Of a stretch of DNA of 6,419 bases, positions 2,016 through 5,440 are shown in pieces. Position 1 is the first letter of the stretch. Each line of letters begins with the position of its first letter. The notes under the pieces were generated by a model that worked only from the letters and a program-made list of their open reading frames with translations, was not told the origin of the DNA and ran no database searches. The DNA is from Alphaproteobacteria bacterium (GTDB taxonomy: Bacteria > Pseudomonadota > Alphaproteobacteria > RF32 > UBA3637). The position numbers and the translations under genes are program-made. The stretch covers positions 1 to 6,419 of the forward strand of contig JAGBRF010000073.1 in the NCBI GenBank assembly GCA_017632555.1. Reading direction: 5' to 3'.

Positions 2016-2222
2016 TTAGTAACCTTCTGCCCATCTGCGTTTACGTTGAATTTTGCGGTTACGACGAATTCCTTCTGCTTTTTCGCGTTTGCGTTTTTCA
2101 GACGGTTTTTCGAATTCGCGACGCATCTTCATTTCACGAAACAAGCCTTCACGTTGCATTTTTTTCTTTAACGCTTTCAATGCTTGTTCGACATTGTTGT
2201 CACGTACGATAACTTGAACTAT
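2016..2222 (-). CDS. rpsU: Small ribosomal subunit protein bS21, apparent AUA start
   Basis: S21 is a basic protein of the 30S subunit located near the anti-Shine-Dalgarno end of 16S rRNA, and acts in initiation. Translation of the minus strand gives 68 residues: VQVIVRDNN near the N terminus, then [19 protein letters not shown], and a Lys/Arg-rich C-terminal half ending WAEGY, the usual alphaproteobacterial S21 layout and length. Homologues begin MVQV; here the codon in the Met position (2222-2220) is ATA. AAGGAGG (2237-2231) lies 8 nt upstream, ideal spacing for that codon. No ATG, GTG or TTG occurs in frame near it; the first in-frame ATG is codon 22 and would remove the conserved N terminus. 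It follows rplI by 35 nt with no terminator, so it is probably the last gene of the rpsF operon. A single-base sequencing error is the main alternative explanation for the start. Confidence 0.92.
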
Positions 2223-2245
2223 GGTACTCCCCTCCTTTCGAAGGA
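2223..2245 (-). promoter_or_regulatory. rpsU ribosome binding site within a small hairpin
   Basis: In the minus-strand mRNA, UCCUU (2245-2241), loop CGA (2240-2238) and AAGGA (2237-2233) form a 5-bp hairpin that covers the Shine-Dalgarno AAGGAGG of rpsU. The UCCUU arm resembles the anti-Shine-Dalgarno of 16S rRNA. The element lies between the rplI stop and the AUA start, and could lower or regulate initiation. The pairing is visible; a regulatory role is inferred. Confidence 0.45.
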
Positions 2246-2257
2246 ATTAAATTGTTA

Positions 2258-2815
2258 CTATTCTTCAGTTTTAGCTTCTTCAGCTGCAACCACCACTTCT
2301 TCATTGACGACATCTTCAACCGGTTTTACCAAATCGGAATTATAAGATGCAGCCAATTTGTTTGCTTCTTCACCCGAACGAGCAACCGTAACTTTAATGG
2401 TTTCGGCAACATCCGGATGCAAAACGATGCGAACATCATATACACCAACGTTTTTAATCGGTTGAGGCATATCGATTTGATGACGTTCCAATTTAACGTT
2501 CATGTCACGCAAAGCTTCGAAAATATCACGAGCAGAAACAGAACCGTATAACATTCCGCCTTCTGCAGCTTGACGAACCAAAGACAAAGAAACTGTTTTG
2601 ATTTTTTCGGCGGCTTTAACGGCTTCTTCACGCAACTTCAAGTTACGAGCTTCCAATTCAGCACGTTTGCTTTCGAAATAAGCCATATTTTCCTTTGTGG
2701 AACGTAAAGCTTTCTTTTGTGGTAATAAGTAGTTACGGGCATATCCGTCTTTTACTTTAACTACATCGCCCATTTGACCAAGGCGTTCAATGCGTTCTAA
2801 TAAAATAACTTCCAT
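2258..2815 (-). CDS. rplI: Large ribosomal subunit protein bL9
   Basis: L9 binds domain V of 23S rRNA near the L1 stalk with its N-terminal domain and reaches towards neighbouring ribosomes through a long helix. The 185-residue product starts MEVILLERIERLGQMGD and carries the L9 signature region at residues 13-31 (G-x2-G, VKVKDGYARNYLLP). A charged connecting helix follows at about 40-75, then the C-terminal domain (about 78-150, with GMLYGSVSARDI). An acidic tail rich in Glu and Val makes it longer than the E. coli protein (149 residues); such extensions are common in alphaproteobacteria. The ATG has AAGGAG (2828-2823) 7 nt upstream, and that site overlaps the rpsR stop codon, so translation is probably coupled to rpsR. 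It ends in TAG. Confidence 0.97.
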   Translation of the reverse strand: MEVILLERIERLGQMGDVVKVKDGYARNYLLPQKKALRSTKENMAYFESKRAELEARNLKLREEAVKAAEKIKTVSLSLVRQAAEGGMLYGSVSARDIFEALRDMNVKLERHQIDMPQPIKNVGVYDVRIVLHPDVAETIKVTVARSGEEANKLAASYNSDLVKPVEDVVNEEVVVAAEEAKTEE

Positions 2816-2826
2816 GTTCGATCTCC

Positions 2827-3069
2827 TTAATTTTCAGTACCGCTGACAAAAGGCAATAAAGCCAAGAAACGAGCACGTTTAGTTGCTTTTGCCAATTGGC
2901 GTTGGTGTTTTGCACAAACGCAGGAAATACGGGACGGAACCATTTTGCCACGTTCTGTAATGAAGCGGGACAATAATTTGACGTCTTTGTAATCGATCAC
3001 TTGTGCATCTTTACCGCAGAACGGGCAAGATTTTGCACGGTGAAAAAATGAACCACGAACTTCAGCCAT
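2827..3069 (-). CDS. rpsR: Small ribosomal subunit protein bS18, zinc-binding type
   Basis: S18 forms a heterodimer with S6 on the platform of the 30S subunit. The 80-residue product contains the family core [18 protein letters not shown] (25-42), VPSRIS, and the C-terminal [11 protein letters not shown]. Cys15 and Cys18 (CPFC) together with Cys52 and His55 (CAKH) reproduce the ligand positions of Cys-containing S18 proteins thought to hold zinc; Cys50 is an extra cysteine. Many proteobacterial S18 proteins have lost these residues. The start ATG shares one base with the rpsF stop (TAATG), and a GAGG lies 7 nt upstream inside rpsF, so translation is coupled to S6. This suits a pair made in equal amounts. 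Confidence 0.97.
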
Positions 3070-3458
3070 TAGAATGCCTCACTTTCATTTTCCAAACCCA
3101 TGTTGAACAAATCATCTGCATCATCGTTTTTCTTTGCTTTCGGAGCCAACATAACAGATGGACCTTCTTCCAAAGCTTCTACTTTGACGGTTAAATGACG
3201 AATAATGTCTTCATCGATGCGCATCATACGTTCCAATTCTTGAACGGCTGTTGCCGGAGCATCAATGTTTAACAATACATAATAACCTTTACGGTTTTTT
3301 TGAATACGGTATGCTAAATTACGCAAACCCCAATTTTCACGCTTTGTGACTTTTCCGCCTTCTTTTTCAACGATACCGGCAAATTTGTCGGTCAATTCGT
3401 CTACTTGTGAAGGAGTTAAATCTTGACGTGTAACAAATACATGTTCATAAAAAGACAT
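3069..3458 (-). CDS. rpsF: Small ribosomal subunit protein bS6
   Basis: S6 binds S18 and the central domain of 16S rRNA in the 30S platform. The 129-residue product begins [20 protein letters not shown] and has the ferredoxin-like S6 fold in order: EHVFVTR strand, helix through about residue 30, [20 protein letters not shown] (strands 2 and 3), helix with [15 protein letters not shown], and a final VKVEAL strand near residue 95. A charged, low-complexity tail (about 100-129) follows. The start at 3458 has AAAGGAG (3473-3467) 8 nt upstream; an in-frame ATG at 3509 would add 17 residues from within the leader hairpin and is rejected. It is the first gene of the rpsF-rpsR-rplI-rpsU group and has its own promoter and a structured leader of about 115 nt. 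Confidence 0.97.
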
Positions 3459-3484
3459 AAATCTTTCTCCTTTAGGATATCTCG

Positions 3485-5336: not shown

Positions 5337-5440
5337 TGGTGGAAGAACCAAGAACAACCCAAAAGCAAAAGGCTTAAGCTGCTTTCTTCCGAACCTGACT
5401 TGGTGAACCAACGTTTTGTCCATTCAAAGTTCTTCCGCCA
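5337..5440 (-). ncRNA. ffs: Signal recognition particle 4.5S RNA
   Basis: The RNA scaffold of the bacterial SRP, which binds Ffh and directs membrane proteins to FtsY. The minus strand carries the universal core ACCAAGUCAGG-UUC-GGAA-GAA-AGCAG, with the GGAA tetraloop at 5390-5387 and the asymmetric-loop AGCAG at 5383-5379; this matches the E. coli 4.5S core apart from a few changes. The ends pair: UGGCGGAAGAAC (5440-5429) with GUUCUUCCACCA (5348-5337), 11 of 12 positions. GGACAA and UUGUUC add pairs further in. About 104 nt, the short bacterial type without an Alu domain. The boundaries come from end pairing and may be off by a few bases. It lies directly upstream of dnaX, with no terminator between. 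Confidence 0.93.

Follow-up and report, generated by a model that had tools for sequence, protein, structure and literature searches.

Does rpsU, the gene for ribosomal protein bS21, begin at AUA in this alphaproteobacterium, and if so, why is such a poor start codon kept? In the window (the whole stretch of 6,419 nucleotides analysed here), rpsU occupies 2016..2222 of the minus strand (68 codons plus stop), and its S21 frame matches Pfam PF01165 with 70.5 bits over residues 3-56 (cut-off 27). The frame opens with ATA GTT CAA GTT (IVQV) where homologues have MVQV, the ATA lying at 2220..2222. Read 5' to 3' on the minus strand, the start region is taa ttc ctt cga aag gag ggg agt acc ATA gtt caa gtt. 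An in-frame stop TAA is located upstream of the start at 2247..2249, and the first in-frame NTG downstream, a TTG at 2178..2180, falls at residue 15 and is too internal for a start; an alternative start in the window rpsU was therefore rejected. The Shine-Dalgarno (SD) sequence GAAAGGAGG (2231..2239, minus strand) is complementary to the 16S tail CCUCCUUUC and contains AAGGAGG (2237-2231), 8 nt 5' of the ATA. Both the AUA start and the position of the AAGGAGG motif, as proposed in the first-pass annotation, are thus borne out by the letters themselves. Judged from these features, rpsU of this gut-type alphaproteobacterium really does begin at AUA and not at AUG.

Upstream of rpsU and on the same strand lie rplI (bL9; 2258..2815), which belongs to the same operon, rpsR (bS18; 2827..3069), and rpsF (bS6; 3069..3458), all three recognised by Pfam (rpsF over 3069-3467) and all starting with ATG, that of rpsF at 3458 with its own SD. 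On the plus strand, orf428 (428-1963; 511 residues) combines a strong SD (-12.5 kcal/mol) with an apparent N-terminal signal-like stretch and gave no Pfam match. A bacterial small SRP RNA (RF00169, 43.8 bits; 5339-5435, minus strand) directly upstream of dnaX was the only Rfam match in the window, in which no Rfam leader was found.

Start codons of rpsU in the family and the class

Compared by bL9, the window is closest among public sequences to L001 (95% identity), a bin of an alphaproteobacterium from yak rumen. The family of L001 was sampled with 43 genomes, and the order-level set consisted of the same 43; S21 was present in 39 and without a match in 4, and 38 genes were readable, since in one genome (G033) the S21 match begins at residue 12 near a contig end. 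The rpsU starts in this family were ATA in 22, ATG in 7, TTG in 4, GTG in 3, and ATC in 2 of the 38 genes. Conservation of the ATA in relatives and a single-base read error were the two points on which the first-pass annotation had made its proposal depend; because the codon is kept in 22 of 38 family genes and recurs in many independent genomes, a sequencing error is excluded. At least one family member, L086, carries an ATG start behind an SD identical to that of the window. Among 80 loci fetched, rpsU adjoined rplI in seven (ATA 6, ATG 1), and among loci with flanks rplI lay directly upstream of rpsU only in eight (L081-L087, L095). Coupling to rplI was rejected as a general cause, as rplI is not directly upstream of rpsU at the other AUA loci.

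In the class sample, 240 alphaproteobacterial genomes were searched, 227 had S21, and 144 genes, mostly the better-scoring ones, were read (83 unread). Their starts were GTG in 74, TTG in 23, ATC in 19, ATG in 14, ATA in 9, and CTG in 5 genes; ATT was absent among these 144 and none was unassigned. With ATA, ATC, or CTG in 33 of the 144, the view that AUA starts are extremely rare does not hold for rpsU in Alphaproteobacteria. A further set of 30 rows from loci of the bL9 search (28 of 30 genomes with an S21 match, partly overlapping the earlier sets) gave GTG 23, TTG 4, ATC 2, CTG 1, and ATG 0. Class and family rows overlap by three loci, resulting in 179 rpsU rows. AUU was never used among the 51 AUH starts in rpsU (30 AUA, 21 AUC), yet it occurs in infC of the same family.

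The start was placed at the Met position or one codon after it in all 179 genes, and ATG, GTG, TTG, CTG, ATA, and ATC were counted as start-like. Where codon 2 is not NTG, a start-like codon stands at the Met position in 80 of 80 genes; where codon 2 is NTG, the preceding codon is start-like in only 4 of 99. This contrast provides the best proof, on comparative grounds, that ATA and ATC are rpsU start codons. The two differ in their genomic setting, with a median locus GC of 0.36 for AUA genes (AT-rich) and 0.61 for AUC genes (GC-rich). On an S21 tree built on about 66 residues, AUH/CUG and other starts swap at least 23 times, so that the poor rpsU start is not one frozen accident.

Neighbouring genes served as controls. 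Alphaproteobacterial rplI begins at the expected position with ATG in 74 of 80 genes (1 GTG, 1 TTG, 4 shifted) and rpsF has ATG in 74 of 75. As a control, rpsR was dropped, since for most of its 52 rows the alignment did not fix the start. In a sample of 100 Pseudomonadota genomes, of which 97 had an S21 match and from which 50 S21 genes were read, E. coli-type rpsU, meaning that S21 is closer to that of E. coli than to that of the window and not a taxon call, starts with ATG in 32 of 33 genes and with TTG in one, and the 17 genes of the alphaproteobacterial type start with GTG (15) or TTG (2). The poor rpsU start, as read from these alignments, is real, conserved, and under selection. Alphaproteobacteria avoid AUG at rpsU and retain it at rplI and rpsF, which speaks for regulation.

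Plasmid copies of rpsU, presumably extra ones, start with ATG in 8, GTG in 3, and TTG in 1 of 12 cases, compared to ATG in 14 of 144 in the class sample (Fisher p 1.5e-5, with the 12 hand-picked from 232 S21-bearing records and neither random nor independent); replicons of 3.7 and 4.6 Mb are among those with a GTG start. A cold-shock gene, rpsU (ATG), and infC stand in a row on a plasmid of Azospirillum brasilense (L372). A faecal contig deposited as an unverified phage (L389, MT838190.1), which may be bacterial, bears an S21 gene that resembles P0005 and starts with GTG.

Shine-Dalgarno strength and bases around the start

SD pairing was computed against the generic 16S tail UCACCUCCUUU. When the 43 family genomes were searched for the 16S tail, the long pattern was found in none and the short pattern in one, L399, in which CCUCCUUUC is intact. 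The rpsU SD of the window reached -13.0 kcal/mol, compared to -8.2 for rplI, -8.1 for rpsR, -8.8 for rpsF, and -4.3 for dnaX. Grouped by start codon, median rpsU values were -13.0 for ATA (30 genes), -12.6 for ATG (19), -9.3 for ATC (21), -8.9 for GTG (77), -8.2 for CTG (5), and -7.5 for TTG (27), and the controls gave -8.9 for rplI (74) and -8.0 for rpsF (72). The SDs of AUA/AUC/CUG genes were stronger than those of GTG/TTG genes (p 1e-6), with no difference in strength between AUA/AUC/CUG and ATG genes (p 0.51). The suggestion that a poor start lies behind an unusually strong SD consequently describes the window (-13.0 against -8.1 to -8.8 for its ribosomal neighbours) and the AUA group, but not the other genes. 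A strong SD as universal partner of the poor start was rejected, since the SDs of ATC, GTG, TTG, and CTG genes are ordinary. Because this is so outside the AT-rich AUA group, the common element is the poor start codon and not the strong SD.

The bases next to the start are also biased. Among the 33 class-sample genes with AUA, AUC, or CUG, base -1 is C in 24 and U in none, whereas U is found there in 19 of 148 rplI and rpsF genes (p 0.027); a U at this position helps weak start codons. The triplet abutting the rpsU start of the window on its 5' side is ACC (2223..2225, minus strand), and ACC or CCC is over-represented, standing before the start in 14 of these 33 genes as compared to 3 of 148 rplI and rpsF genes. 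Within rpsU of the class sample, the same triplets precede 19 of 74 GTG, 0 of 23 TTG, and 0 of 14 ATG starts. GTT follows as codon 2 in 42 of the 51 AUA/AUC genes, and the arrangement GAGTACC-AT(A/C)-GTT was found in both AT-rich and GC-rich genomes (L081, L119, L213).

The leader revealed nothing convincing as an operator. Of two leader sets, one gave a weak consensus fold that slightly surpassed its shuffles (-2.85, with -0.61 as the lowest value among 50 column shuffles), and most of this fold lies within the coding region. By eye, a promoter-like element, TTGCAA-N17-TATAAT, stands about 30 nt before the SD in some family members, which would leave little room for a protein-binding operator.

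Possible causes of the poor start codon

The explanation that we consider best, with roughly an even chance of being correct, is that selection keeps initiation at rpsU limited by its start codon, probably by way of feedback on how much bS21 is available. Initiator tRNA would translate rpsU from AUA, helped by the long SD helix, as sequence and conservation suggest, and selection would hold alphaproteobacterial rpsU on GUG, UUG, AUC, AUA, or CUG, such that the start codon limits S21 synthesis. When bS21 is scarce, 30S subunits or initiation conditions might accept the poor codon better, while bS21-replete subunits might reject it, and S21 output would then track demand. By holding the mRNA on the 30S subunit, the SD may give time for testing the codon, and in the AT-rich AUA genomes such testing might need a very strong SD. 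That AUG is used in only 14 of the 144 class genes, with five other codons in its place, suggests such feedback. Also in its favour are the conserved ATA, the ATG starts of rplI, rpsF, and E. coli-type rpsU, the repeated start changes on the S21 tree, the ATG of most plasmid copies read, the strong SDs of AUA genes, the lack of U at -1, and the promoter-like element close to the SD. The first-pass annotation, which proposed a device sensing ribosomes that contain or lack S21, is supported in part, by the conserved AUA, the strong SD of the window gene, and the avoidance of AUG. Against feedback stand these same 14 ATG genes together with the 7 of 38 in the family, among them L086 with its equally strong SD, and a poor codon is thus not obligatory. 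The ordinary SDs of ATC, GTG, TTG, and CTG genes and the equal SD strength of AUA/AUC/CUG and ATG genes count against it as well.

In Flavobacterium, bS21 is proven to feed back on rpsU at the site of its initiation, with bS21-free ribosomes raising rpsU translation, according to passages of PMC9976891. In E. coli, bS21 helps SD pairing, as stated in part of PMC10931766, and this would give a purely SD-based feedback the wrong sign. Since SDs are ordinary in most of the class, we locate the putative sensor in the start codon and the bases immediately before it and not in the SD. Only tentatively do we extend this to a class-wide sensor, in which 30S subunits without bS21 would accept and complete ones reject the rpsU site, so that the codon and not SD occlusion reads S21 supply. 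The site would consist of GGAGG, a spacer often ending in GUACC, AUA/AUC/GUG, and then GUU; housekeeping copies would keep the sensor and plasmid copies escape with AUG.

A possible, though rather doubtful, alternative to feedback is that the poor start simply limits dosage and sets S21 stoichiometry, like the AUU of E. coli pcnB. This would fit the same comparative data, that is, the class counts and the rplI, rpsF, and E. coli-type rpsU controls, and non-canonical starts gave about 10% of AUG output in S. aureus reporters described in part of PMC13009471. Yet a weaker SD or promoter would suffice for such a limit, whereas the AUA genes have the strongest SDs, and S21 is required in about ribosomal amounts.

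It is unlikely that rpsU and infC belong to a gene set in which the reading of poor starts depends on the level of IF3 or on the medium, even though the AUA start of S. aureus ccpN is medium-dependent, as reported in part of PMC13009471. In the same family as the window, 4 of 30 infC loci (L318, L334, L336, L339) have a frame free of NTG up to the stop, with ATA in L318, from the genome of L001, which keeps a shared dependence on IF3 in contention, and rpsU adjoins infC on the Azospirillum plasmid. GUG or UUG in 97 of 144 alphaproteobacterial rpsU genes argues against this coupling. IF3 rejects GUG and UUG less than AUH.

Neutral drift, in which the identity of the rpsU start is immaterial and AUA is one of several tolerated codons, is very improbable. 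The 52 codon changes in 179 rows on the S21 tree would suit it, but AUG, one step from GUG, AUA, and AUC, should then be common, in contrast to the 14 of 144 observed, and neighbouring genes and E. coli-type rpsU retain AUG, a codon under purifying selection in prokaryotes generally (stated in part of PMC5622118).

The idea that the AUA start is an artefact or reflects recoding, be it through a sequencing error, decoding of AUA as Met, or initiation at another codon, can be dismissed: 32 of the 56 AUA/AUC/CUG genes do have some upstream in-frame NTG, codons that gene callers use, and seven have NTG at residues 4-6, but independent genomes share the ATA, AUC is used in the same way, no in-frame NTG lies between the upstream stop and the ATA of the window, and database-called N-terminal extensions are unlike each other between groups. 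AUA recoded to Met was rejected, as the clade's other ATA codons fall on Ile columns; S18 column 43, ATA in the clade, is Ile in 39 of 41 other alphaproteobacteria, and one L9 ATA column is not Ile.

Known systems and consequences for bS21

Poor starts that control translation are known from several genes. Autoregulated infC (AUU/AUA/AUC) resembles rpsU here in being a conserved translation gene with an AUH start and a strong SD, and AUH starts are likewise seen in infC of the same family (L313-L318, L334, L336, L339, and others). The two differ in that IF3 itself judges start codons, a role not described for bS21 in the available passages of PMC9976891 and PMC10931766, and in that infC uses AUU, whereas rpsU here uses GUG, UUG, AUC, AUA, or CUG, with AUU in 0 of 179 rows. 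According to part of PMC13009471, infC of S. aureus starts with AUA.

In Bacteroidota, bS21-free ribosomes autoregulate the same gene, which has a short leader and an SD outstanding among ribosomal protein genes; the anti-SD is occluded there in SD-poor organisms (both from passages of PMC9976891), while here SDs precede neighbouring genes too, and what is both conserved and unusual is the start codon. The window genes rplI, rpsF, rpsR, and orf428 carry SDs of -8.1 to -12.5 kcal/mol, unlike the SD-poor condition of Bacteroidota. The window rpsU lies at the Bacteroidota SD threshold (-13.0 against -13 kcal/mol, computed with a tail shorter than that of the paper) and has the strongest SD of the four ribosomal protein genes of the window. 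The match of the window S21 to the Flavobacterium-type chain 7jil_z is confined to residues 6-46.

Another 30S protein gene, rpsT (bS20), has a class-typical poor start, UUG, in E. coli and relatives that is thought to be autoregulatory; it encodes a different protein, does not use AUH, and starts with AUG in Alphaproteobacteria, and bS20 autoregulation is unproven (from part of PMC10931766). Poor starts with an SD also lower the output of E. coli pcnB (AUU) and of S. aureus ccpN (AUA) and cvfC1 (AUU); these genes encode non-ribosomal proteins, and avoidance of AUG across a class is not reported for them in the available part of PMC13009471. No report of non-AUG rpsU in Alphaproteobacteria was found in open PubMed Central texts. 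The case described here adds to the known poor-start control of infC, rpsT, and Bacteroidota rpsU, with a mechanism at rpsU that we infer.

The start codon also bears on annotation. Searching 5.8 billion predicted proteins with the window S21 gave no full-length relative above 91% identity (among the best 120 of 8000 matches, 90% clusters), and relatives at 97-100% identity are present in public bins. Of the 120 protein matches listed, 42 are extended at the N-terminus and have Ile where the start lies, as expected because gene callers must find ATG, GTG, or TTG. S21 would accordingly be missing or falsely extended N-terminally in many alphaproteobacterial annotations.

As a ribosomal protein gene, rpsU would join a very short list of conserved AUA/AUC starts and would provide a bacterial class with selection against AUG at one gene. 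Because bS21 is located near the 3' end of 16S rRNA, rpsU would test directly whether ribosome composition alters start codon choice.
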